Shown in pieces: positions 13,205 through 37,417 of a stretch of 64,000 nt of DNA. Made by a program: the position numbers and the translations under genes. Location: NCBI RefSeq assembly GCF_000284095.1, contig NC_017068.1, forward strand, positions 2,294,001 to 2,358,000, written 5' to 3'. Each line of letters begins with the position of its first letter. Position 1 is the stretch's first letter. The stretch is from Selenomonas ruminantium subsp. lactilytica TAM6421. GTDB lineage: Bacteria; Bacillota; Negativicutes; Selenomonadales; Selenomonadaceae. Below the pieces are notes generated by a model. That model worked only from the letters and a program-made list of their open reading frames with translations, did not search any database and was not told the origin of the DNA.

Positions 13205-14911
13205 TTAGAAGCGGAAGTGGGACAAAGCTTCCTGCTGCCCTTGGGCCAGGGTTGCCAGAGCCTCGCTGGCAGCAGCGATTTCCTCGGCCGAAGCGGACTG
13301 CTCTTCCGTGGCAGCAGATACGGCCTGCATTTCGCTGGCCACCTTACCGCTGTAACTGTTGATATCGTTCATCTCACTGGCAATCTCGTTGGTTGCGTCC
13401 GCCACGGAATGGATGGCATCGGTAACATGGCTGATCTCACCGGATACGCCCACCACCAGCTGATTGATCTCCTCGAACATGGTACGCAGGGATTCCACGC
13501 TCTGAGCACCTGTGATGACGGCTTCCTTACCGGAACGCATGGCAATCACAGCATTTTCCGTATCATTCTGGATTTCCCGGACAAGATTTGCAATCTTCTC
13601 GGCGGACTCCTTGGATTCCTGGGCCAGCTTGCCGACTTCCTCGGCCACAACCTTGAAGCCGCGGCCATGGTCACCGGCACGGGCTGCCTCAATGGAAGCA
13701 TTCAGGGCCAACAGGTTGGTCTGCTCGGCAATCCCCGTCATGGCATCCACGATCTCACCGATCTGCTTGGATCGCTCGCCCAAGCGGTCTACCATCTTGG
13801 CGGAAGAAGTTACGGTTACCTCTACATCCTTGATCTGACGGACCGAATCATCAATGGAGTCATTGCCCGCTTCTGCGCGCTGGGCTACAGCAGAAGAATT
13901 CTCCTCAACCTTGGCGGATTTCTGGCGGATCTCCTCGACGGAGGCTTCCGCATTCTGCACGGACTCGTTGCTTTCCATAACAGCCTGCTGCTGATGTTCC
14001 ACCGATTCCACCACTTCCGCAGCCGACTGCGCCACCTGACCGGCGGCCTGGGCGGCCTGTCCTGCGCTGGCAGAAAGCTCTTCAGAGGAAGCGGCCATCT
14101 GTTCTGCTGAATCACTGACTGTACGCATGAGTTTGTTCAGGGAGCGGCGCATTTCCTGCATGGCAGCTTCCATCTGTCCCAGCTCATCGCCACGGGGTTC
14201 ATAATGTTCGTTAAGTCGGAAGTCCCCATCCTTCATCTGATTGCATTCCTGAACCATCTGTTCCAGCGTGGTCATGATATCCCGGATGATGAAGAAGGCC
14301 ACCCCCATCAGCGCTGCAAAGCACAGGATCGTCGTCACGATCATCATGAACATCTCATGGGCATTGTTTTCCGTAACTTCCTCATTGAGGGCATCGGCAT
14401 TGTCATTGGCCAATTTTTCCAGATTATGCAGGCTGGCCACCAGATCCTTGGTGATGCCATTCTCCATTTTCTTGTAATGATCCCAGGCTTCCTGCTTCTT
14501 GCCAGCATCTGTGAGGCGCTTCACTTCCATGATGCCCTGCTTGTACTCGATCCACTGTTTCTCCACTTCCGGAATCTTGGGAGCGATATTATCCGCCCGC
14601 ATGGCCAGCTCCTTATATTCCGGCCAGGTCTTTTCATAGCTGTCCATTGCTTCTTTGACGTACGCTATAATCTGCTCGTCCTTCGGATCGATGATGTGTT
14701 TGGTCACCCCCAGCTGAACCTTGCGGGTGTAGTTGATCTCATTTCCCAGCAAACGCGTTGCCTTCAACTTCCGGTGGTACATGTTGTCAAGGTCATCCCC
14801 GGCCTTACTCATGCCGCTATACCCGGAAAAACTCAGAATTGCCATGCCGATGATACCGATAACCACCAGCACCAAAATCTTAGCTCCAATACGAATGTCC
14901 TTCAATCTCAT
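13205..14911 (-). CDS. Methyl-accepting chemotaxis protein 2 (four-helix-bundle sensor), tandem paralogue
   Basis: 568 residues, exactly the length of MCP 1 and nearly identical to it from the HAMP domain to the C-terminus (about 210-568). TM1 is about 11-32, the sensor bundle about 35-185, TM2 about 187-209, and the tip near 393-413. The sensor part (for example [16 protein letters not shown] against [15 protein letters not shown]) has diverged. Together with the shared upstream block this marks a tandem duplication of promoter plus gene. AGTGAGGAA precedes the ATG. Confidence 0.95.
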
Positions 14912-23106: not shown

Positions 23107-24222
23107 ATGCGGGATTTAAGGGTGTTTGCCATTGACAACTCCATAACATTCCAAAACACCTTGGTGCAGGAGCTATCAAGACGTCTCCCCAGCGGCAGTC
23201 TGGTGGAACACGCCGCTAAGCCCGCCGAGGCCATGGATAAGCTGCCCATTTTCAAGCCCACCATCATCGTGATGAACTTTGCCCTGGGCTCTCTTTTGGT
23301 GAATCAGGAGAAATTCCTGCCCCTGCTGGTCAAGAAATATCCCCAGGTGCCCATTGTTACCTATGGCATCCTGGAAAGCGGACAAAAGGCCGCCATGATC
23401 CTGGGTGCTTCTCATTATCTGAAGAAACCCTCCATCGGGCAGCCCATGGAACCCTTCTATGAGAATCTGGTCAGTGCCCTGCTTGTATCCCAGGGAAAGA
23501 ACTCCACTGCCTCCCTTAGTTCTGCCGATATCGGCGGCGGAGCTGTGGTCACCCGGGAAATCTGGCGGGCCTCAAGACCTGCCCAGCCGCCGCCACCGCC
23601 CAAGCCGGCGCCTTCCCCCATGGAGCCCATGATCAATGTGCCGCAAAATGCAGCCCATATCGATCTGATTGCCATGGGTGCCTCCACCGGCGGCACCGAA
23701 GCATTATCCGCCATCATCACGAAGCTGGAACCGCCCCTGCCGGGCATCGTCATCGTCCAGCATATCCCGCCGATGTTCTCCAAGCTGTTCTCTGAGCGCC
23801 TCAATACGGAAAGCAAACTGACCGTCAAGGAAGCCGTCAGCGGCGATGTGGTGCTGCCTAACCATGTGTACATCGCGCCGGGAGCCAAGCATATGACCAT
23901 CTCCCGCATGGGCACCCGTTATATGCTGGAATGCAAGCCTGGGCCGCCGGTGCACAGCGTCTGTCCCTCCGTGGACGTGCTCTTTGACAGCGTAGCTGAC
24001 ATCGCAGGCAATCATGCCATGGGCATCATCCTCACCGGCATCGGCAAGGACGGCGCCGCAGGGCTCCTCAAGATGCGCAACCTCGGCTCCCCCACCATCG
24101 GTCAGGACGCCGCCAGCTCCACCGTCTATGGCATGCCCAAGGCCGCTTTTGAAATTGGTGCTGTACAGCAGCAGCTGCCGCTTCTAAGCATCCCCCAGGC
24201 CATATATAAGATCGTAAGATAG
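23107..24222 (+). CDS. CheB-type protein-glutamate methylesterase with degenerate receiver domain
   Basis: 371 residues. The C-terminal CheB domain (about 183-371) has the full triad: S193 in MGASTGGTEA, H219 in VQHIPPMF and D315 in TGIGKDGAAG, so it should demethylate/deamidate MCPs. The N-terminal receiver (1-125) has lost key residues: the acidic pair is D10-N11 and the phospho-acceptor Asp is N57 (IIVMNFAL), although K106 remains. A Pro-rich linker (PPPPPKPAPSP, about 162-172) joins the two. ATG 23107 with GGCGGAGGGG upstream; a TATAAT at 23085-23090 may be its -10. It has its own terminator and stands apart from any cheA or cheR in this window. Confidence 0.88.
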   Translation: MRDLRVFAIDNSITFQNTLVQELSRRLPSGSLVEHAAKPAEAMDKLPIFKPTIIVMNFALGSLLVNQEKFLPLLVKKYPQVPIVTYGILESGQKAAMILGASHYLKKPSIGQPMEPFYENLVSALLVSQGKNSTASLSSADIGGGAVVTREIWRASRPAQPPPPPKPAPSPMEPMINVPQNAAHIDLIAMGASTGGTEALSAIITKLEPPLPGIVIVQHIPPMFSKLFSERLNTESKLTVKEAVSGDVVLPNHVYIAPGAKHMTISRMGTRYMLECKPGPPVHSVCPSVDVLFDSVADIAGNHAMGIILTGIGKDGAAGLLKMRNLGSPTIGQDAASSTVYGMPKAAFEIGAVQQQLPLLSIPQAIYKIVR

Positions 24223-24224
24223 GC

Positions 24225-24255
24225 AAAGCCTTCCCACTCAGGGGAGGCTTTTTTT
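24225..24255 (+). terminator. Terminator of the CheB-like gene
   Basis: AAAGCCTTCCC pairs with GGGGAGGCTTT around ACTCA and runs into a T-tract. It separates this gene from the permease-kinase pair. Confidence 0.88.
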
Positions 24256-24345
24256 CATTATAGAAGGAATTTCTGCCACAAAAGGCGAAATTATCCAAAA
24301 ATATTATTTGCCTGTAAGCTCAACGAACTGGAAGGAGCGTTCTAT

Positions 24346-26799
24346 ATGGATAAGCAAACGCAGAAGAACCTGCTCTCCCCGCTGCATGTCTGGGCACTTT
24401 CCCTGGGCTGTGCGGTGGGCTGGGGTGCTTTTATGGTGCCCGCCAATCTCTTCATTCCCACAGCAGGGCCGTTGGGAACCATGCTGGCCATGGGCATCAG
24501 CACGGCGCTGCTTCTGGTTATCGGCGCCAATTTCTGCCGTCTGGCCGAAAAATACCATGACGACGGCGGCATCGTAGCCTATGTCCGCAACATCATCGGC
24601 CATGACCATGCCTTTCTGGCGGCCTGGATTCTTCTGATCGCCTATCTTTCCATTCTCTGGGCCAACGCCACAGCCACTGTGTTGCTGTTCCGCTTCCTGC
24701 ACGGAGACTTGCTCTCCTGGGGCTATCTCTATACCATTGCCGGCTTTGACATCTACTTCGGCGAGATGCTGGCTGTCTGGCTGGTCATTATCGTCTTTGG
24801 CCTGTTCACCTGCTACAGCGGCACGCTGGCCCGCTATTTGAACACCTTTTGCGCCATCCTTTTTTTTCTGTCTGTCATTATCCTGTCCGCAGCCATGTTC
24901 AGTCAGGTAGACACGAGCGTATTCAAGCCGGCCTTCCAAACTTATACCAATCCCATCATGCAGATCTTCAGTATGGTGATGCTGGCTCCCTGGATGTTCT
25001 TCGGCTTTGAGGCCGTCACCCATGCCTGCGATGATTTTGATTTTTCCAGCAAAAGACTCTTTCCCATTGTCATCGCAGCCGTGCTCAGCGGCGGACTTAT
25101 CTATATCCTGCTGGCGGCCATGGCCATCATGTCCATCCCGCCGGAATACGCCTCCTGGACTACCTATATCGCCCAGCGCCCCCATCTTGAGGGACTTGCC
25201 GGACTGCCGGTATTCCATAGCGTGCATGCCGTTTTCGGCAGAGAAGGACTGCTCTTTCTCTGCGTATCCATCGACTGCGCCATCATCACCAGCCTCATGG
25301 GACTTTACCGCACCTGCGGGCGCCTGCTGTACTTCATGGCCAGATGTGAAGTCCTGCCTGCCTGGTTCAGCAAACGGGCCGCGGATGAAACGCCCCGCAA
25401 TGCCATCATCTTTGTGATGCTTATTTCCCTGTTGATTCCCCTCCTGGGACGGATATCCATTGTCTGGCTCTGCGACGTCATCACAGTGGTCGGCTCCGTC
25501 GCCTATGGTTATGCTTCCTACTGCGCCTATCTGCTGGCAAAAAGAGAAGGCAGCCGACAGGACAAATTCAGGGGCATCTTTGGTGTGTTCATTTCCTGTC
25601 TGTTTTTCTTCTGTCCATTGCTGCCCGGGCTGTTATTGGGCGGTTCTTTGGATACAGAATCCTATCTGATGCTTTCAGTCTGGAGTATTCTGGGCTTTAT
25701 CTATTATTGGTATGTATTCAAACACGATACCCACAACCGCTTTGGCCACAGCACCTCCATGTGCATTATGATCCTGTTCCTGAATTTCTTCTCCACCAGC
25801 ATCTGGCTGCGGCAGGTTACCGAAGAGCGGCTCAAAGATGCTGCCACCGGTTCCTTCACGGGAGGCTACAGTATTATAGTCGCAGACAGTGTCGTCCAGA
25901 TGGCTATGATTATGATTATCCTGCTTTTGATGACCAATATCTTCATCACGCTGAAACGCCGGGAACACGATATGACCCGGACACTCCAACAGCAGCACGA
26001 AGTCAATCATGCCCAAAACACCTACCTGCGCAATCTGGCCCATGATATCCGCATTCCCATGGAAGCGGCCCAGCTTTCCGTCCATCATTCTTTGGAAAAC
26101 TGCACCATTTGTTCCGCCTGTGCAGTGGAATCCTGTCCTCATCGCATTCCCGACCGCCTGGCCAACTGTCTGGGACAGTTAGACAGCCACAGCCAGTACC
26201 TGATGAGCCTGATTTCCAGCATGCTGGACAAGCGTAACATGAAAATGGGCGGTATAGAAATGGGCAAAATACCCTTGGATTTTGCCCGTATGGATTGGCG
26301 GTATACTTTGCAGCATATCAAGGATATATTCGCGCTGAAAATGCAGGAAAAAAATATCTTTTTTGAAGTCTACCCCATTGAACTGCCTCACCCCCATGTC
26401 ATCTGCGATACGCAACGCTTAGAGCGCCTCCTTATCAATCTGGTCAGCAACGCCTGCGAATTCACGCCCAATGCTGGCGGCGTCATGGTAACCCTGATGG
26501 AAACAGGCCCAGCTGCCGTAAAATATCAGGGACAGGATGTGCCCGGTGCCATCTATGAAATCCATATCAACGACACGGGCACCAATATGCCGCCCGCCAT
26601 CATCCAGCATATGGCCGAGCCCTTCGAGCTCGAAACCAGCGGCCTGGGTGGCCTCTATATCGTTCAAGGCCTGACAACCCTCTTAGGCGGCAGCATCAAG
26701 ATCAACACCAACACCGGACAGGGACCGGGCAAGGATATCGTCGTGACACTGCCTCTGCCACTGGCTGAACCTCTGTTTGAACCGGCAGCAGAATTCTAG
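24346..26799 (+). CDS. APC-type amino acid permease fused to a histidine kinase core (active-looking copy)
   Basis: 817 residues. Residues 1 to about 545 are an APC-superfamily permease: LGCAVGWGAFMVPANLF near the start and some 14 hydrophobic segments. After a short linker comes a kinase module: H box with H566 (LAHDIRIPM), a cysteine group C586/C589/C592/C597 (CxxCxxCx4CP), N box with N698 and N702 (NLVSNACEF), G1 box D743-T-G745 (INDTGTNM, second Gly of DxGxG is Asn) and G2 box GLGGLYIVQGL (766-776). It probably senses amino acid binding or transport and signals to an unlinked response regulator; none is encoded nearby. GGAAGGAG precedes the ATG, and the stop is 15 nt before the second copy. 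Confidence 0.85.
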   Translation: MDKQTQKNLLSPLHVWALSLGCAVGWGAFMVPANLFIPTAGPLGTMLAMGISTALLLVIGANFCRLAEKYHDDGGIVAYVRNIIGHDHAFLAAWILLIAYLSILWANATATVLLFRFLHGDLLSWGYLYTIAGFDIYFGEMLAVWLVIIVFGLFTCYSGTLARYLNTFCAILFFLSVIILSAAMFSQVDTSVFKPAFQTYTNPIMQIFSMVMLAPWMFFGFEAVTHACDDFDFSSKRLFPIVIAAVLSGGLIYILLAAMAIMSIPPEYASWTTYIAQRPHLEGLAGLPVFHSVHAVFGREGLLFLCVSIDCAIITSLMGLYRTCGRLLYFMARCEVLPAWFSKRAADETPRNAIIFVMLISLLIPLLGRISIVWLCDVITVVGSVAYGYASYCAYLLAKREGSRQDKFRGIFGVFISCLFFFCPLLPGLLLGGSLDTESYLMLSVWSILGFIYYWYVFKHDTHNRFGHSTSMCIMILFLNFFSTSIWLRQVTEERLKDAATGSFTGGYSIIVADSVVQMAMIMIILLLMTNIFITLKRREHDMTRTLQQQHEVNHAQNTYLRNLAHDIRIPMEAAQLSVHHSLENCTICSACAVESCPHRIPDRLANCLGQLDSHSQYLMSLISSMLDKRNMKMGGIEMGKIPLDFARMDWRYTLQHIKDIFALKMQEKNIFFEVYPIELPHPHVICDTQRLERLLINLVSNACEFTPNAGGVMVTLMETGPAAVKYQGQDVPGAIYEIHINDTGTNMPPAIIQHMAEPFELETSGLGGLYIVQGLTTLLGGSIKINTNTGQGPGKDIVVTLPLPLAEPLFEPAAEF

Positions 26800-26814
26800 A
26801 GAGGAGATGTGCTT

Positions 26815-29328
26815 ATGCAGGAGCAAAAAGATACAGCAACTGCCGAAAAAAATAATGTCCGCCTGCTCTATCCCCTGAATGTCTGGGGACTGTCCTTCGG
26901 CTGTGCCGTAGGCTGGGGAGCTTTCATGATGCCGGGCAATCTCTTCCTGCCCCACGCCGGCCCCGTGGGCAGCATTATCGCCATCGCCTTAGGCAGCATC
27001 GCCATGCTGATTATCGGCGCCAATTTCTGCAAGCTGGCGCAAAAATACCGGGATAACGGCGGTTTCTTTGCCTATGTACGAGAGGTCATGGGACATGACC
27101 ATGCGTTCTTAGCAGCCTGGGCCCTGATTGTCACTTACCTGTCCATCATCTGGGCCAATGCCACCGCCGTGGTGGTGCTCGCGCGCTTCTATTTTGGCGG
27201 CGTGCTCCAATGGGGCTTCCACTACAAATTGGCCGGCTTCGATGTCTACGCTGGGGAGATTCTCACCACATGGCTGGTCCTCATTGCCTTTGGCTGCTTT
27301 TCTGCCTATGCGGGCAAGGCAAAACGCCCAGTCAATACACTGATGGCCCTGCTGCTGTTCTTCGGCATCCTGCTGCTCTTCAGCGGCGTGCTGGCCATGA
27401 GTCCCCGCCATGCCAGCTTCTATCCGGCTTTTGACCCGGATATCGGCGGCACACCTTTCTTACAGATTTTCAGTATGCTGATGGTAGCCCCCTGGATGTT
27501 TTTCGGCTTTGAATCCATCACCCATGGCGGCGAGGAATTCCGCTTTCCCATCCAGCGTACCTTCCCCATTATTGTCGGCGCCGTGATTGCCACTTTTTTG
27601 GCTTACAGCCTGCCCATTGCCATTGCCGTTATGGGCAGCCCAGCCGAATTTGCCACCTGGCACGAATACATCATTTCTCTAAGCCACTTGAAAGGCTTTG
27701 ATGCCCTGCCGGTCTTCCACGGGGTTGATGCCCTCTTAGGTCCCGGTGGCATGGCTCTTTTGGCCGCCACGGTACTGGCGGGAATTTTCACCGGCATCAA
27801 CGGCCTCTACCGCGGCTGCTCCTTCCTGCTGCAGTCCATGGCCAAAGATGAGCTCTTGCCTGCCGTCTTTGCCACCCAGGCCGATGACGGCACACCCCGC
27901 AAAGCAGTTTTCCTGATTCTCTTGGTATCCCTGCCCATTCCCTTCCTGGGGCGCACAGCCATTGTCTGGCTCGTGGATGCCATCACCATCAGCGGAGCTA
28001 TCGCCTATGCCTATGTATCCTTATGCCGCTATCGAGAGGCCAAATCCGGGCAGGATTCCACGGGTAAAACCATGGGGATTGCAGGTTTTTTACTTTCCTT
28101 GTTCTTTTTCTTCTGCCCGATTGTCCCCGACCTGCTTTTAGGCAGCACATTGGAAACCGAATCCTATCTGCTGCTGGCGGTCTGGAGTGTTTTGGGGCTC
28201 ATCTATTATTGGTATATCTTTAAGCACGACAAGCAGGAACGCTTCGGCAAATCCTTCACCCTGTGCACCGTGCTGCTATTCCTGAATTTCTTCTCCACAG
28301 CCCTCTGGCTGCGGCAGGTCATGGTCACGAAAATCCCGCTGGCCCAAATGGGCGGTTATGCCCCCATCCATGATGCGCTAAATCATTACAGCATGATTCA
28401 AATTGTACTCATCATGCTAATTCTGCTCTTCATGGCCGATATCTTCACCACCATGCGCCGCCGGGAACACGATATGAGCAAACGAGTCATCGCCGAGCAG
28501 CGCGCCAGCCATACCCGTGGCGCCTATCTGGCCAACATGACCCATGATATCAGCCTCACCATGAATGCCATCATGAGCTATGTGCATCTGGCCCGGGAAA
28601 ATGGCGAAGAATACAAAGAGAATGCCGGCTGCTGCCCGCATGAAGCCTTGAACGGACTCTACCAGAGCCTTGTCCATACCGATTCCATCAGCCATTACTT
28701 CCTCCATCTGGTCAGGGAAATGGAAAAGGTGTACCGCATCCAAAGCACAAGGCTGAAGCTTTACCCAGTACCCACAGATATCCGCTACAATCTCAAACAG
28801 GTCAAGGATATCTTCACGGAGCAGATGCAGGACAAGAATATCGACTTCATGGTTTATACCGCAGAACTGGAAAATCCCTATGTTTACTGCGACAAGAACC
28901 GCCTGCAGCGCATCCTCCTGAACCTCATCAGCCTTGCCTATATGTTCACTCCCGTAGGCGGCAGCATTGCCGTTACTCTGGCGCAAAAGGGCTTTGCCTA
29001 TCATAAACCGCCCGAAGACAGCAGCCGGCGCCGATTCCTGCTTTATGCAGATTATGAACTACGCATCTGCAATTCCGATGCCGTCATGCCGCCGGAAATC
29101 AGCAGCCAGCTCCTGCACGACTGTAATTGGGAACAGCTCTTCAAAGAGGAAGGCTCGGAGCGGGGATTGGCCATCACCAAGCATCTGATTGACCTCTTCC
29201 ATGGCTCCTTCAACATAGTCTCGGAACCGGGACAGGGCACGGAAATCATCATCAACCTGACCTTGCAGCTGGCCAAGCAGTCTGCCGTCCCCATCCATGT
29301 GGAACAGGAAGCCGCCAATATCATATAA
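26815..29328 (+). CDS. APC-type amino acid permease fused to a degenerate histidine kinase (pseudokinase-like copy)
   Basis: 837 residues, homologous over its whole length to the upstream protein (permease start LSFGCAVGWGAFMMPGNLF; membrane part to about 555). The H box keeps H577 (THDISLTM). The ATP-binding part is degraded: the second N-box Asn is L707 (NLISLAYMF), G1 reads N753-S-D755 where the partner has D743-T-G745, and G2 is reduced to SERGLAITKHL. The Cys group shrinks to GCCPH. This looks like a kinase-dead partner that may form a heterodimer or act as transporter-sensor only. I use ATG 26815, with GAGAGGAG 8 nt upstream, rather than the GTG at 26809. Co-transcribed with the first copy. 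Confidence 0.82.
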   Translation: MQEQKDTATAEKNNVRLLYPLNVWGLSFGCAVGWGAFMMPGNLFLPHAGPVGSIIAIALGSIAMLIIGANFCKLAQKYRDNGGFFAYVREVMGHDHAFLAAWALIVTYLSIIWANATAVVVLARFYFGGVLQWGFHYKLAGFDVYAGEILTTWLVLIAFGCFSAYAGKAKRPVNTLMALLLFFGILLLFSGVLAMSPRHASFYPAFDPDIGGTPFLQIFSMLMVAPWMFFGFESITHGGEEFRFPIQRTFPIIVGAVIATFLAYSLPIAIAVMGSPAEFATWHEYIISLSHLKGFDALPVFHGVDALLGPGGMALLAATVLAGIFTGINGLYRGCSFLLQSMAKDELLPAVFATQADDGTPRKAVFLILLVSLPIPFLGRTAIVWLVDAITISGAIAYAYVSLCRYREAKSGQDSTGKTMGIAGFLLSLFFFFCPIVPDLLLGSTLETESYLLLAVWSVLGLIYYWYIFKHDKQERFGKSFTLCTVLLFLNFFSTALWLRQVMVTKIPLAQMGGYAPIHDALNHYSMIQIVLIMLILLFMADIFTTMRRREHDMSKRVIAEQRASHTRGAYLANMTHDISLTMNAIMSYVHLARENGEEYKENAGCCPHEALNGLYQSLVHTDSISHYFLHLVREMEKVYRIQSTRLKLYPVPTDIRYNLKQVKDIFTEQMQDKNIDFMVYTAELENPYVYCDKNRLQRILLNLISLAYMFTPVGGSIAVTLAQKGFAYHKPPEDSSRRRFLLYADYELRICNSDAVMPPEISSQLLHDCNWEQLFKEEGSERGLAITKHLIDLFHGSFNIVSEPGQGTEIIINLTLQLAKQSAVPIHVEQEAANII

Positions 29329-29391: not shown

Positions 29392-31110
29392 TTAATACTC
29401 AAAACGCTCCAACGAATTCTGCAAATCCTGGGCCAACTGCGCCAAGGATTCGCTGGCCGAAGCAATCTCCTGCGCCGAAGCGGACTGCTCTTCCGAAGCC
29501 GCCGACACGCTGGTCATCTCACCGGAAATCACTTTGCCATTGTCGGCAATGCTCTTGGTCTTTTCGTCAATATTATTGGCTTCCGCAGCCACGACCCGCA
29601 GTTCATCGAGCATGACTTTCGCCCGTTCGGCTACGCCATTGGTCGCTTCTTCAATCTGGGCAAAGGTATCGCGCAGATCCGAAACAGCCCGTGAACCGGC
29701 CTGTACGGCTTCGCTGCCGGATTTCATCGAAGAAACGGCCGCCGCCGTATCCTTCTGGATGCCGCTAATCAGGGAAGTGATTTTCTGGGCAGCGTTCTGG
29801 GATTCTTCCGCCAGCTTGCGCACTTCTTCAGCCACCACTGCAAAGCCGCGGCCATGTTCGCCTGCCCGGGCTGCTTCAATGGCTGCATTGAGCGCCAACA
29901 GATTCGTCTGCTCGGCAATGGCCGAAATCGTATCGACAATCTGGCCGATTTCCTGCGAACTTTGTCCGAGCTTATCCACCGTCACCGCAGAACCATTGAC
30001 AATCTTCTCGACGCTGATAATCTGTTCCACCGCTGCGTTGACATTGCGTCCGCCCTCCGTGGCCCTGCTATTGGCATGGCTGGCATAGCTGACCACATCA
30101 TCTGCCGTCTTGTTCAGGGTCTCCAGAGAATTATTCTGCTCATTGATAGCCTCGCCGGCCTCACTGACAAAATTGCCCTGTTCCGTCACGGCATGGGAGG
30201 CCTGTCCCACCGATTGCGCCACCGAACCTGCCGCCTGCGCTGCCTGATGGGCGCTGGCCGTGAGTTCTTCGGACGAAGCCGCCAGCTGCTGGGCGCTTTC
30301 ATTAGTGGTCTGCATGAGTTCACCGATAGTCTTGCGCATCTGGAAGAAGGCATCTGCCACAATGCCGAACTCATCCCCGCGCTGTACCGGATTGGCTGTA
30401 ATGCGGAAGTCGCCGTCCTTCATTTTCCGGCAGCCCGCAATCATCATCTCAATCGGCGCCATAACCCCCTTCATCACAATATAGCTGACCACCACCAAAA
30501 CCACCAGCACAATCACACATTCCAGCAGCATATCGCGGATAGCGGCGGCTGTATCGGCATCATTCTGCTTGTCCAGTGTTTCTGCCCGCTGATGTTCTAC
30601 ATCATTGAGCTCATCCAGCGTCTTGGTCAGGCGCAACATAACCGGCACGGACTTAGTCTGCGTATGCTGGAAAGCTTCGGCATTCTTGAGCTCTAACGTA
30701 TACTGAACAACCACGGCATTCTCTTTCTTCAAACTTTCCCAATCCGTCTGAATTGCCTTGGTCATTTCAATGATCTTGGGGTTGTCCTCCTTGATGGCCG
30801 CATAATCGGCTACAGCCTTATCAGCATTCTTGACCGCTTCGTCATAGGTTCCCTTTGTTTTCTTCAGGAAATCCATCTCATCCGAGGTCATCATTTCTAC
30901 CGCCAGCGCATGGGCACGGCGAATCTGGAAACGGGCCTCCTGGGCACGCTCCATACCAGTCAATGATGTGGCATACATAAAAGTCATATCACGCTGTGCC
31001 TTGCTCAGCGCACTATAGGCCGACCAGCCAATCAACAGCATACCGATGATTCCTACGGCCACCATCAATCCCAATTTTACTGGCACCTTCAGATTATCCA
31101 TCCATTGCAT
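29392..31110 (-). CDS. Methyl-accepting chemotaxis protein 3 (four-helix-bundle sensor)
   Basis: 572 residues: TM1 about 11-31 ([21 protein letters not shown]), a helical sensor about 35-190 starting [19 protein letters not shown]2 about 190-213 ([17 protein letters not shown]), HAMP, and a signalling hairpin with [21 protein letters not shown]. It is closer in layout to MCP 1/2 than to MCP 5/6. Ends LERFEY with no CheR tether. The upstream 160 bp hold the terminator of MCP 4 and no clear promoter. The ligand is unknown. Confidence 0.94.
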
Positions 31111-31191
31111 AAGACAGCACTTCCCTTCTTGATTTCGGCAGCATTATCCCTTTTTCCGCTGCCTTCTCCCACATATCAATCTGCTTTTCAA

Positions 31192-31222
31192 AATAAAGCA
31201 GGCGGCTGACTTTTCAACCGCC
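31192..31222 (-). terminator. Terminator of MCP 4
   Basis: On the minus strand GGCGGTTGA pairs with TCAGCCGCC (one mismatch) around a 4-nt loop, followed by TGCTTTATTTT. Confidence 0.7.
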
Positions 31223-31272
31223 CGCCCTGCATTCACTTTATCCACCTATTGACTTATCAAAGTCTCTGAAAA

Positions 31273-33003
31273 TCACACCTTGAACTCGCCCACAGCCGTT
31301 TGCAGGCCATGCGCCAGCTGGGCCAGCGCCTCACTTGCCGAAGCGATTTCTTCGGCGGCTGCGGACTGCTGCTCGGCGGCTGCCGATACGCTTTCCATGT
31401 CGGCTGCCACCCGGCGGCTGTTCTCGGAAATCTTGCTGGAGCGATTGCGGACATTTTCCGTATCGTCCGATACCACTTTCAAATCACCGCTCATGCCATG
31501 AGCCTTATCTGCTACAGCATCCGAAGCTTCAAGGATCTTATCAAAAGCCACTTTGAGCTGACTGACGGATTCCGTGCCTTCCTTGACGGCCGCATTGCCC
31601 TTCTGCATGGAGTTGACCGCATCCGTGGTATCGTTCTGAATGGCACCGATCAGATCCGTGATGCGCTTGGCCGCATTCTGGGACTCTTCAGCCAACTTCC
31701 TGACCTCGTCCGCTACAACGGCAAAGCCGCGGCCATGTTCGCCGGCACGGGCTGCTTCGATGGCGGCATTGAGCGCCAGCAGGTTCGTCTGGTCGGCGAT
31801 ACCGGAGATGGTCTCCACGATCTGGCCAATTTCCTGGGAGCGTTGCCCCAGCTTATCCACCGTAGCAGTAGAACTGTTGACGATCGACTCGACACTGACA
31901 ATCTTATCCACAGCACTGCCAATGGCACTGCTGCCATCCTGTGCCTGTTTATGGGATTCCGTGACATTGGCCGTGACTTCACCAGCGGTCTGATTGAGGT
32001 TGCTGATGGAGTTCATGGTGTTATCGATGGACTCCATGGCCTCCTCCACATCCTTCTGCTGTTCGATGACAGCACCGGCAGAGCTCGTCACACGCTGGGC
32101 CACCTGCTCAGAAGCCAGTGCCGACTGATGTGCCGTGGCCGTAAGCTCCTGCGAAGACGCCGCCAGCTGTTCGGTGGAGGTGATGACCTTCTTGATCAGA
32201 TTGTTGACCGTGATGCGCATATCGCGGACCGCAGCTTCCATGCGGCCGAATTCGTCGCCGCGCTCCACGGTACCGATCTTGCCGCCCGTGCGGAAATCGC
32301 CCCGGGACAGCTTCTCGCAGACCAGGATAACCAGCTGCAGCGGTCCTGTGATCTGCTTGGTCACAAAGGCAATAGCCAGCGTCAGCACCACGATGATGAC
32401 GGCACAGGTAACCACCATGCGGAAAACCGCACTGTTCATATCTTCTTCGCCCTTATCCAGTCCTTTTTTGGCATCTTCGAGGCTTCTGCCCTGGACAGCT
32501 TCCAGGTCACCAGACATGGCCACGGCCAGCGGCATGACCTTTTCCTGATAGAACATCATTGGGGCTAATTCATCTTCGCTTTCATAGGCATTCATCTGCA
32601 AAAGCTGAGCGGCATTAGCCTTGTAAGCATCAAAGTCCTTGCGCACCTTGGCCGCCATCTCTGCCCTTTTCGGATGTTTGGCATGCAGCGCTTCATACTT
32701 CTGCATGAAATCTTCCGCTTCGGCAATGGCCGCATTGAATTTCGTGACCCGCTCCTGACGGTATTCCGGCTTATTGGTATACGGCTGGAGACTGGCCTGA
32801 ATCTGCGAATAACGGGTGTTGTAGCGTACCTGAGCACAATAGTAGATGCTCATGGTATCTTCATTGTAAAGCTCTTCCATATCCGCTCGGGCTGCCCTGA
32901 TTGAAGTATAACCAACCCAGCCCACAATCAGCGTGGCAATGAAAGCCAGCACGCCGATACATGCCAGTTTTTGGGCAACACTGATGTTTCTGATGAATCC
33001 CAT
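31273..33003 (-). CDS. Methyl-accepting chemotaxis protein 4 (four-helix-bundle sensor)
   Basis: 576 residues: TM1 about 11-31 ([20 protein letters not shown]), a helical sensor about 35-185 with [21 protein letters not shown]2 about 190-212 ([18 protein letters not shown]), HAMP with [15 protein letters not shown], and a hairpin tip [22 protein letters not shown] start at ATG 33003 because GGAAGGAGA is correctly spaced upstream; a TTG at 33021 is less likely. It begins 69 nt after MCP 5 with no terminator between, so the two are probably one transcript. Confidence 0.94.
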
Positions 33004-33072
33004 GATCTTCTCTCCTTCCAACTTTATTATGCATCCCTGCCGATATGATTCGATTCGCGGAACAGGACTTGT

Positions 33073-35052
33073 TTATACGCTGAATCTGGACACGGCTTCC
33101 TGCATCTTCCCAGCCATATTGGCCAAGGCCTGTGAAGCGGCGGCGATTTCTTCATTGGAAGCGGACTGTTCTTCCGTTGCCGAAGAAATGGTCTGCATGC
33201 TGTCCGCAGTTTTCTGCGTTATGCTGTCGATAGCCTCCACTGCCGTCACAATCTGTTCAGCACCTGTAGAAACCTGAGAAACAGCATTGCTGATTTCCCC
33301 AATCTGGGTATTTATATCGTCCACCTTGCTCATGATATCTTCAAATTGTTCCCCTACATTCCGGATAGCCTTGGTTCCCAGGGTAACTTCCTGCGTGCCG
33401 CTCTGCATGGAATCCACCGCCCGGGCAGTCTCATTCTGGATGGAGGCAATGCGCTCCTTGATCTGCTCTGCCGATTCCTGGGATTCAGCCGCCAATTTAC
33501 GGACTTCCTCTGCTACTACCGCAAACCCCCGGCCCTGTTCACCGGCACGGGCTGCCTCGATGGCGGCATTGAGGGACAGCAGGTTGGTCTGCTGGGCAAT
33601 GGAGGAAATCGCCTCCACGATCTGCCCAATCTGCTGGGAACTCTCCCCTAAGGTCTTCACGACTTCCGAAGACGAAAGCACGCTCTGCTCGATGGCTCCC
33701 ATCTTGCTGATGGCCTCTTCCATCAGCCCGGCGCCCTTCTTTGCCGCTTCCGCCGTCTGTTGGGAAGCCGTGGTGATATGCCGGGCTTTGGTTGCCACAT
33801 TGGCAATATCATTATAGACACCGCCCACGCTGCTCTTGGCATGTTCGATATCGCCCAACTGCTGAGCCACATTGCCGCTGACTTCGCCCACAGTTTCCGC
33901 CACATGCACAGCTGCCTCTGCCGACTGCTGGGTATTGGCAGTAAGTTCTTCCGAAGATGCTGCCACCTGTTCCGAGGTCGTAGCCATCTGGCGGATCAGG
34001 TTGCTCAGGTTCTCACTCATGGTATTGAAAGCCTGCGTAAGAGAGCCGATCTCATCCCGGGACGTAACAGGCAGTTTCTCCTGACGCAGATTCCCCTTGG
34101 CCATCTCTCGGGCATTACCTTCCAATGCCACAATCGGATTGGTGATGTCCGCAGCCACTTTGAAACATACGCCCAGCACCAGGATCAGACCGACTACCGT
34201 CAGGATACCATATCCGATCTTCAAAGTCGTCACAGAGGAGAATACATAATCATAAGGCACACTCATAGCGAAAATCCAGCCAGTGCTGGGAACAATCGTA
34301 TAACTGCAGATCATCTTGCCATCACGGGGACTATCAAAGACGAATACGCCCTTGCCCTTTTGCTGCATTTCATCGAAATGACTGCCTACACCAGGCAGAT
34401 CCTGAAATTTGGAACCAATCTGTTCATCTGTTCCAATCCCCAAGACCACTCCACTCTTATCGGCTACAGCAGCCATACCTGCTTCACCATGGTATTTCAG
34501 CTTATCCACCTGCGTATCCACCACAGCCATGTCAATATCCGTACAGATGGCACCATAGAATTGACCATCCTTCTTGAACGGTGCCACTGCTGACACGACC
34601 ATCTTGCCCGTATTCTTGTCCACATAAGGATCCGTGAAGCTCATCTTGCCAGCCTTCTTGGCATCATTATACCAGGGGCGCGTACGGGGGTCTAAAGTTC
34701 CTGTGCTCTTGTTTTGCGTACGATAAGAAGCGAAATAACCATCTTCCATGCCGACATTCAGATCCAGGATTTCCCCATCCGAAGCACCAATAGCCAGAGA
34801 GGTAATGCTTTTGAGCCGGTTTTCATCACCATTGAACTCCGTCATCAGATCAGCTGCGTACTGCGCAGATGCCCCCTTAGCCTGCAGCCAGCCGTCCATC
34901 TGGGATGCTGCATCACCCATAGTTGCAGTAAGCTCCTGCTCCACGGCCTGTTCCAGATTCTTATCCGCCGTGTAAAAACCGATAATGGATACCACTGCCA
35001 TCAGCAAACCAACAATACCGGCCAGAACGGAAAACTTCTGCCTGATCCCCAT
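33073..35052 (-). CDS. Methyl-accepting chemotaxis protein 5 (dCache sensor)
   Basis: About 659 residues: TM1 about 6-26, a periplasmic dCache domain about 30-275 with [16 protein letters not shown] and [22 protein letters not shown]2 about 280-302, HAMP, and a hairpin with [21 protein letters not shown]. The RxWY plus downstream ICTDIDM arrangement resembles amino-acid-binding dCache domains, so an amino acid ligand is a reasonable guess. ATG 35052 has GAGAGG 9 nt upstream; an ATG at 35061 would touch that ribosome binding site. Probable operon with MCP 4. Confidence 0.94.
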
Positions 35053-35196
35053 ACCTACCATCCTCTCTTTAGTATTTTACATTTCCTTAAATCCATAAAT
35101 CTCCGTGTGTTGTTACTTCTACACCAAAGAGGCAAATCCTTTTAAAGACTAAAAATTTTCTAAAAACTAACGGGTACATCGGGTACGGAAAACAGC

Positions 35197-35245
35197 GAAA
35201 AAGATGCTGAAAAGCCTGCATCTGAGCGCGCATCTTTTCAGCATC
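35197..35245 (-). terminator. Terminator of MCP 6
   Basis: A 12-bp perfect stem, GATGCTGAAAAG (35203-35214) with CTTTTCAGCATC (35234-35245), is followed on the minus strand by TTTTTCGC. Confidence 0.9.
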
Positions 35246-35268
35246 TCCTTATATTGCCTTATTTTCTT

Positions 35269-37329
35269 TTAAAGTTTGAATCTCTGCATCCCAGCCTGCA
35301 GGTCGCTGGCCAGCTGGGCCAGGCTTCTGGCCGCATCAGAAATCTCATGCATGGAAGCACTCTGCTCCTGTCCGGCAGCTGATACCGACTGGGCTTCGTC
35401 CGAATTCTTGCCGCTGGTCTTCGCGATATTGACACTAGCCTGCAGCATCTTTTCATTTTCCTGGGCCATGGTATCGATGCCCTTGGCAATCCGCTGGATC
35501 TGTCTGGTCAGGTCATCAATGACGTTGACGATTTCCTGGAAGACGATATCCGCAGACTGAACGGTATCAATCCCCGCCTGCACGCTCTGGGCGCCACTGG
35601 CACTGGCCTCTACCGCCAGTTTCATATCCTGCAGGTTTCCCTTGACCAGATCAGCAATCTGCTGAGAAGACTGGTTGGAACTTTCAGCCAGCTTGCGCAC
35701 TTCATCGGCCACTACCGCAAACCCACGGCCAGCCTCGCCAGCTCTGGCAGCTTCAATCGCCGCATTCAATGCCAGCAGGTTCGTCTGCTCGGCAATGCTC
35801 GTAATCATCTGGACAATGTCCGAAATCTGCTTGGAGCTGTCGTTCAATTTCTCAATGGATACCTGGATGCTGTCCGTGCTGGCCGTGATATTATTCATCT
35901 GGGCTACTGCCTCCTGTATGGAGCGGCGTCCGCCATTGATTTTTTCCTTGGCCGCCACGGCATTCTGCAGCACGATATTGGTATCCTTCACGATATTCTG
36001 GGCATGCTGCGTAACATCTTCGGCGGTAGCCTGGATATTGCCCGCCTCGACGGCCTGCTCACTGGCCCCCTCGGCTATGCTGACCACGCTATCGGCTACC
36101 ATATGGGCAGCCTGGGCCGACTGTTCGGCGCTGGCGGTCAGTTCTTCACTGGCAGCGGCCACCTGATCCGACATACTGTTGACATCCCCAATAACCTTGC
36201 GCAGGTTTTCAATCATATTATTAAGCGAATCCCCGAGCGCCCCCATTTCATCACGAGCCGCAATGTTCGAACGGCCCCGCAGGTCGCCATCGGCAATCTT
36301 GCCGGCTTCCGTCATCAGATGTTCAATCGGATTGCCCACCCGGCGGTTGAATACACCAATCAGGACCACACAGAGCACCAGCATAACGACAATAGCCATG
36401 ACAATGCTGGTGTATCTGGCCTTATTGATGGGGCCGGCATAATCGGCCACAGGCGCCACGAGAACAATCTTCAGATTGTCAATGTATAATGGCGCAATCA
36501 TGATATAGCTGTCCTCACCTAAGGCAGAGGTTTCCATGAAGGTAAGCTCCTGCGCGTTGATGGCCTTCTGCCCAATAGCGGCCACTTCGGCATTGCTGTC
36601 TTCCGTTATCTTGGCCTTCATGTTCTTATTGTCATCGCGACTGGCCAGGTAATAACCATCATGGGTGACGAGGAACGCATAGCCCGTATCTCCCACCTGG
36701 ATATTCTTGACATAATCTTCGAGCTCATCGATATTCATGGTGATGGTGATGACGCCATCGATATGCCCATTCTGCAAGAAAGCCCTGGCACTGGTCATCA
36801 TATTGCGTCCGGAAATTTCTTCATGATAGGGGCCGATGACGATATTCTTGCCCGGCGAAGCCATGGCCTCTGTGTAATATTTTTCCTTCTGATAATCATA
36901 GCCCTTGCTGGTATCGCTGTAATCCATCGTGAGCTTGACCGTGCCGCCGTCACGAATCAGATAAGGACCAAAATAAGCCTGTCCCTCCTGATAGGCATTG
37001 GGTGCAAACCAATAACCGCTGCCCACTACCAGATTGTCCGATTCGATATAGCCCTTGGCCATACCGTACAGGATATCCAGATCATAGACTTTCAGCTGGG
37101 TGGCCGTCAGCTCCAGGCCGGCGGTTTTCTGCTCCACCTGCATCAGACGCTGGTCCAGCTTATTCGTGATGGCTGTCGCCTGCTGTCCTAAGCTGTTCTT
37201 GACCTGATTTTCCATGCCGTCCTGAAACTGAGCAACATTGATGAAGGTCTGAATGGTGAGCAATACGCCTGTGATGATGATGATACAGGCAATGAACAAT
37301 GTTTTTATACTGCCGTCAGGTTTTCTCAT
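35269..37329 (-). CDS. Methyl-accepting chemotaxis protein 6 (dCache sensor)
   Basis: 686 residues from ATG 37329, chosen for AAAGGAGGG just upstream. TM1 is about 9-30 ([19 protein letters not shown]); a periplasmic dCache domain spans about 35-300 ([57 protein letters not shown]); TM2 is about 310-332; then HAMP and a hairpin with [21 protein letters not shown]. It lacks the RPWY motif seen in MCP 5, so its ligand class probably differs. Its own terminator separates it from MCP 5. Confidence 0.94.
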
Positions 37330-37417
37330 ATGATGCCCTCCTTTACAACGTTGTTGAGGCAGATACAATTTCTACCTATCATTTCGTGCTCAACTGATAT
37401 TATTCCTGCCTGAATAT

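Follow-up and report, generated by a model that had tools for sequence, protein, structure and literature searches.

What is a histidine kinase for once it can no longer bind ATP? The question is raised by a locus of the rumen bacterium Selenomonas ruminantium subsp. lactilytica TAM6421, where two tandem genes each join a permease to a kinase-like transmitter and the second is predicted to have a dead ATP site. We call the first gene copy A and the second copy B. An earlier note on this DNA took B for a likely pseudokinase that is phosphorylated in trans by an active first copy or that modulates it. Here we follow up that proposal in a window of 64,000 nt, meaning the whole stretch of DNA that was analysed (NC_017068.1, positions 2,294,001-2,358,000; assembly GCF_000284095.1), and in relatives of the pair gathered from whole genomes (100 relatives and 189 of the family). 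The features of the pair are these:

24346..26799, + strand: copy A, an APC-type permease with a histidine kinase, 817 aa; N box and G1 Asp kept, lid shortened, G2 eroded (Pfam, alignment).
26802..26806, + strand: AGGAG, likely ribosome-binding site of B (sequence).
26815..29328, + strand: copy B, an APC-type permease with a HisKA-like DHp and an ATP-site-dead HATPase_c, 837 aa; a predicted pseudo-histidine-kinase (Pfam, sequence).
28540..28563, + strand: H box of B, THDISLTM; H577 and D578 kept, Thr at H+4 replaced by Leu and Pro at H+5 by Thr.
28921..28947, + strand: N box of B, NLISLAYMF; the second Asn is L707 (Asn in 0/14 B).
29071..29088, + strand: G1 box of B, NSDAVM, with N753 and D755 (sequence, alignment).
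29149..29175, + strand: degenerate G2 region of B, EGSERGLAI (second Gly in 0/14 B).

The best start for B is ATG 26815, preceded by AGGAG and lying 15 bp from the stop of A. B accompanies A in all 16 A-bearing genomes, either adjacent or cut by contig ends, and the two genes are very probably co-transcribed. Their products are 45% identical across 819 columns. Both match AA_permease_2 (A 70.5 bits, B 62.3 bits) and HATPase_c above its cut-off of 26.4 (A 56.3, B 36.6). HisKA scores 16.3 bits in A, below the cut-off of 26.9, and no match for B is listed by Pfam at E<=10. The membrane part of B matches two APC-type permease families at E<=10 and otherwise DUF6688, weakly and below its cut-off; the SLC5 membrane domain is absent from the Pfam matches of B at E<=10. 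Among solved structures, the permease of B has one match, a weak one to Y+L amino acid transporter 2 (E 0.0041).

Are the losses in B shared by its relatives? The protein alignment holds 61 sequences: 16 A and 16 B (window included), 19 singles chosen from many single-gene matches, and X1 and X2, five proteins apiece, which are the members of a more distant tandem pair in genus g3. Two singles are permease-GGDEF proteins, leaving 17 that are counted as canonical. As a separate observation, two adjacent permease-GGDEF fusions occur at L101:2803-9157, with the same type of permease on a diguanylate cyclase and not on a kinase. Counts for B are out of 14, since L019 and L089 stop at a contig edge before the kinase region. 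One A orthologue (G017/L098), which its contig splits into two frames, still has the kinase part and so stays in the A count. Loci L038-L050 come largely from the same genomes as other loci and were counted once. The 14 B sequences form a single clade with some near-identical rows and are therefore not 14 independent losses. In the records, named relatives that bear the pair carry the labels Selenomonas ruminantium, Selenomonas sp. and Anaerovibrio, and the window genome falls in the same genus group (g1) as several of them.

The phospho-His and the adjacent acid are present throughout: in 17/17 singles, 10/10 X, 16/16 A and 14/14 B. The second Asn of the N box, which is a Mg ligand in histidine kinases, is likewise found in 17/17 singles, 10/10 X and 16/16 A, and in none of the 14 B (13 Leu, 1 Val). 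The first N-box Asn is as invariant in B as the His and its acid. The loss of the second Asn is fixed across the clade and is the strongest sign that B does not bind Mg-ATP. The second Gly of G2 has also gone from every B (0/14), the window copy having GSERGL against a canonical GxGL(G/A). The G1 box varies. Its Asp is kept by 17/17 singles, 10/10 X, 16/16 A and 5/14 B, those five (L083, L084, L087, L098, L116) retaining DSGTG, DSGNG or DSGFG. The window reads NSDAV against DxGxG, and the change at D755 is confined to it and its nearest relatives, L081 and L082. G1 is truncated in the near-identical B of L088 and L091, and the lid is deleted in that of L086. The distance from G1 to G2 is 31-33 residues in singles and X and 25-27 in A; in B it is mostly 30, once 29, twice 14 and once 8.

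Changes in the H box extend to both members of the pair. Thr at H+4 is found in 17/17 singles, 0/10 X, 0/16 A (all Ile) and 0/14 B (all Leu), and is thus missing from all 40 pair members having the region. Pro at H+5 is kept in 17/17 singles, 8/10 X and 16/16 A, and lost from all 14 B; the window B has HDISLTM where canonical relatives have HDIRTPM. In the HisKA proteins tested, Thr or Asn at H+4 is required for phosphatase activity and dispensable for kinase activity, whereas the acid at H+1 is required for kinase and dispensable for phosphatase activity (PMC3510030, in excerpt). Since the pairs lack this Thr and keep this acid, we argue that phosphorylation of the His probably persists and that dephosphorylation of a regulator has been lost.

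Copy A shows erosion of its own. The Lys three residues past the N-box Asn is present in 17/17 singles and 5/5 X2, and absent from X1 (0/5), A (0/16, all Glu) and B (0/14). The GxG of G2 has gone from 16/16 A. Scores for HATPase_c fall in the same order, from 90-100 bits (nine singles) through 46-79 (six X) and 45-56 (three A) to about 37 (three B). As a control within the genome, six of its eight other kinase matches were aligned, and in each of the six the H, N, G1 and G2 boxes are intact.

These counts change the earlier picture of the pair. The residues reported for window B (H577 kept, L707, N753, D755, a reduced G2) are exact in the 837-aa product read from ATG 26815. Conservation of the losses among orthologues holds for the N-box Asn and the second G2 Gly, both lost in 14/14, and fails for G1, where 5/14 keep DxGxG. 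Loss was said to be confined to the ATP site, with the H box kept; this is wrong in part, for the Thr at H+4 has gone from A and B and the Pro at H+5 from B. Of the proposal of a kinase-dead B beside an active A, the first half survives: B has a predicted dead ATP site and is maintained. With its shorter lid, its Lys-to-Glu change and its lost G2, features that erode the ATP site in 16/16 sequences, A does not support the label of active copy.

That B is maintained rests on selection and on predicted structure. Between window B and its four nearest orthologues, dN/dS (Nei-Gojobori) ranges over 0.102-0.147 for the ATPase domain and 0.045-0.064 for the permease, with silent sites near saturation in two of the four pairs. 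The ATPase domain of A gives similar values, 0.118-0.172, in its four nearest pairs. More distant B pairs, at or near saturation, give 0.17-0.19 where a value is given. The reading frames of B are unbroken across the kinase region wherever the contig includes it, and simple decay is unlikely, as the earlier note also held. Taken with the six intact kinases elsewhere in the genome, a dN/dS well below 1 in the ATPase domain of B places the losses beyond chance. In the AlphaFold model of the B transmitter (mean pLDDT 80), the DHp part forms two long helices and the ATPase part a sandwich; the model of A is weaker (pLDDT 70.7). The solved folds nearest to the model of B are kinases: GacS (Z 21.2, 155 aligned, rmsd 2.0) and, level with it, RetS (Z 20.6, 158 aligned, rmsd 2.6), the phytochrome A of a plant, and ETR1. 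By the match to GacS and the HATPase_c score, the Bergerat ATPase fold is retained. A pseudo-histidine-kinase is a protein that lacks one or more kinase functions and still takes part in a signalling network (PMC12632262, in excerpt). In B the sequence loss is conserved and the ATPase domain is under purifying selection, and we consider it highly probable, judging from sequence, that B is a maintained pseudo-histidine-kinase with a dead ATP site.

How did the pair arise? All 17 canonical singles have the hybrid architecture permease-kinase-receiver, as found by Pfam for nine and judged by eye from their tails for eight. Pfam found no receiver domain in the two window copies or in ten other pair members scanned. 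Trees were built on the permease and linker only, the first with 60 of the 61 rows and a second, under a mixture model, with 38 of 61 (12 near-identical or partial A/B rows and 11 singles were left out). A and B each form one clade (100/100). X2 groups with B, with support of 93/82 in the first tree and 90/90 under the mixture model, and two receiver-bearing singles (L099, L100) are nested within the pair clade. Topology tests rejected a single tandem duplication in which A is orthologous to X1 (p-AU 0.0003) and did not reject an independent duplication giving A and B (p-AU 0.19). From these trees, X2 is likely orthologous to B.

X2 also bears on what the earlier note would have counted against a pseudokinase, namely B orthologues whose N and G boxes are intact. 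The objection holds in part: the N and G1 boxes of X2 are intact in 5/5, its G2 is decayed and its orthology is only probable. Since these probable orthologues keep N and G1, pseudokinase status would be derived within the Selenomonas ruminantium-Anaerovibrio lineage. The simplest order of loss would have the receiver and the phosphatase Thr go first, and the ATP lid of A and the N box of B later. Living relatives retain what appear to be earlier steps: a canonical receiver-bearing single, a pair whose members have no receiver and keep their N boxes intact, and a pair in which the second copy is ATP-dead. This makes it possible to test in what order the losses came and what use each step had.

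If the pair has no receiver, where might a signal go? The genes on either side suggest chemotaxis:

23107..24222, + strand: CheB-like methylesterase; its pseudo-receiver has Asn57 in place of the phospho-Asp and Asn11 at the second acidic site (Pfam, alignment).
24225..24251, + strand: terminator-like hairpin between cheB and A, an 11-pair stem followed by a T run (sequence).
29392..31110, - strand: methyl-accepting chemotaxis protein, convergent to B and first of four in a row (MCPsignal 142 bits).

CheB scores 198 bits for CheB_methylest and 15.7 bits for Response_reg, the latter below its cut-off of 30.2. In S. ruminantium and Anaerovibrio its gene adjoins A upstream at all 15 of the 15 loci that have flank, the window among them. 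Asn occupies both the phospho-Asp and the second acidic position in 14/14 aligned CheB found beside A, and the Ser, His and Asp that are the catalytic residues of the enzyme are kept in the same 14/14. In a wider alignment of 21 CheB (window included), the further sequences chosen from the best full-length matches, the phospho-site is Asn in 18, Ser in 1 and Asp in 2, which look canonical. Pseudo-receiver CheB (L153-L172 among the loci) is spread over several genera of the family. It is present without A or B in G011, G005, G015 and G008, and at L165, L166 and L172 it is followed by a kinase gene on the same strand; by Pfam, those of L165 and L172 are canonical hybrids of HisKA, HATPase_c and receiver. 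A match to the window CheB was absent from the flanking stretches examined of the five genus g3 pairs. One of these receiver-less pairs adjoins a flagellin gene (L092:4967-6937).

The gap between cheB and A is 118-130 nt in the S. ruminantium group and contains the hairpin and T run. In the Anaerovibrio group it is 39 nt in L087 and 12 nt in both L088 and L090, and none of these three gaps has a hairpin with a T run. Given that CheB occurs without the pair and that, in the S. ruminantium group, cheB and A have the hairpin between them, the link to CheB is not obligatory. Judged by eye from coordinates, cheB and A share one frame that no further stop interrupts, both in the window and in roughly half the loci. 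A readthrough fusion of cheB, A and B was considered and dropped; in the window the terminator-like hairpin also lies between cheB and A. The leader of A, some 120 nt (24223-24345), contains the hairpin and an imperfect inverted repeat, AATTTC..GCC / GGC.GAAATT, and other loci of the S. ruminantium group resemble it in part. On the other side of the pair, a chemoreceptor gene lies beside B in 11/13 loci with flank (window included). In L090, one of the two exceptions, its place is taken by a hybrid kinase that carries a solute-binding domain (L090:2767-5787) and is convergent to B. The window holds five chemoreceptor genes, one at 13205-14911 and four in a row at 29392-37368 (-).

We propose that A and B may form a heterodimeric transporter sensor that lacks phosphatase activity, in which B is the pseudokinase and the output falls on the local CheB. 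We hold this reading, as a whole, to be about evenly balanced. A and B would pair through their DHp helices, and the shared four-helix bundle would shift with the ligand of either permease or with its transport state. That the heterodimer is the working form we somewhat favour. B would keep its ATPase fold without binding Mg-ATP, and any phosphoryl group on H577 would come in trans from the weakened ATPase domain of A. A protein with a phospho-His and its acid and no ATP site fits a His phosphorylated in trans, and A, its ATP site eroded, may be unable to phosphorylate it; trans-phosphorylation of B is possible, and we lean modestly against it. Because both proteins lack the phosphatase Thr, no reversible kinase and phosphatase action on a normal response regulator is expected. 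Output would instead be local, through the pseudo-receiver CheB to chemoreceptor methylation. The neighbouring CheB as the target of the pair is a tentative suggestion, and the most doubtful of these parts.

The rival that survives best removes the phosphoryl group altogether. A and B would be a ligand-driven scaffold on whose DHp bundle the CheB pseudo-receiver docks, so that transporter conformation gates CheB. CheB has Asn at its phospho-site in 14/14 aligned sequences, the N box of B is lost in 14/14, the lid of A is shorter and its N-box Lys is Glu in 16/16, and the Thr is lost in 40/40; the 12 pair members scanned have no receiver, whereas the scanned singles have one. Such a module has difficulty with the His and acid that kinase activity requires, invariant in all 30 A and B and hard to explain without phosphorylation, and with the occurrence of CheB without the pair in other genomes. 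We judge it unlikely. Its full form, a two-component system without phosphate in which paired transporter-kinases, having neither a working ATP site nor the phosphatase residue, are ligand-gated scaffolds for a dead-receiver CheB, is slightly less likely still. If true, the conformation of a nutrient transporter would set chemoreceptor methylation directly.

Alternatively, B could be a former kinase that now serves only as a histidine phosphotransferase, passing phosphate from A, or from another kinase, to a distant response regulator. ChpT, Spo0B and RcsD are phosphotransfer partners of this kind, and B keeps the His and acid and has lost the ATP site. It also matches HPTransfase (PF10090), weakly: the score of 12.4 bits lies far under the cut-off of 22.9, and a canonical single scores 20.3. 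That score is too low for a ChpT-like identity, which we rejected. No ChpT chain is among the structural matches listed for B, an absence that excludes nothing. B moreover keeps its permease, and the product of cheB, the receiver-like neighbour of the pair, has no phospho-Asp. The transferase role seems improbable.

Equally improbable, in our estimate, is that B acts on A in the manner of RetS, the heterodimer lowering the activity of A and the His of B being a relic. The folds closest to B include RetS and GacS, and heterodimerisation with RetS lowers GacS signalling (PMC12189002, in excerpt); yet 14/14 B keep the His and acid, more than an inhibitor should need. Ordinary decay, with the kinase domain of B adrift since the duplication and nothing but the transporter part of importance, would suit a lid and G1 that are variable or deleted among B and an ATPase domain less conserved than the permease, but we hold it very unlikely given the low dN/dS of that domain (0.102-0.147 in the four nearest pairs), the unbroken frames and the invariant His, acid and first N-box Asn. 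The heterodimeric sensor remains our preferred reading.

How does this sensor compare with known systems? In the open literature we found no paper on APC-type permease-kinase fusions, including a tandem pair with an ATP-dead second member, none on CheB with a pseudo-receiver, and little on kinase-dead heterodimers. Treatment of pseudo-histidine-kinases as a class has only just begun, and pseudo-receivers, about 2% of receivers (3,111 of 152,269), switch in a way that has been called a mystery (PMC12632262, in excerpt).

B differs from DivL in what it has lost: its His is retained and its ATP site is gone. DivL has no phospho-His, carrying Tyr in its place. The likeness is that DivL too is a pseudo-histidine-kinase that has kept the kinase fold and lost the catalytic role (PMC4211667 and PMC9491836, in excerpt). 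Like B, the ChrS of an evolved Corynebacterium glutamicum is an ATPase-dead kinase that works with a paralogous kinase; unlike B, it arose by a frameshift truncation in the laboratory, and its His is not needed (PMC9491836, in excerpt). By two-hybrid assay the native kinases of that system form heterodimers and the truncated pseudokinase does not (same excerpts), which we count against the A-B heterodimer.

RetS and GacS are not known to be transporter fusions or a tandem pair. They are two histidine-kinase homologues that signal by heterodimer (PMC12189002, in excerpt), and the model of B finds them among its nearest folds. Transporter folds have been recruited to kinases elsewhere. The ammonium sensor kinase of Kuenenia uses one as its sensor, as A and B would, with an Amt fold and not an APC-type one (PMC5764959, in excerpt). 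The SLC5-STAC kinases CbrA and CrbS also carry a transporter-like membrane domain on a histidine kinase (PMC13022988 for CbrA, in excerpt). A and B are unlike them in matching an APC-type permease, in being tandem paralogues and in that one of the two has no ATP site. The pair would be a transporter-fold sensor tied to chemotaxis, with a predicted pseudokinase, a partly eroded partner and a pseudo-receiver CheB all at one locus.
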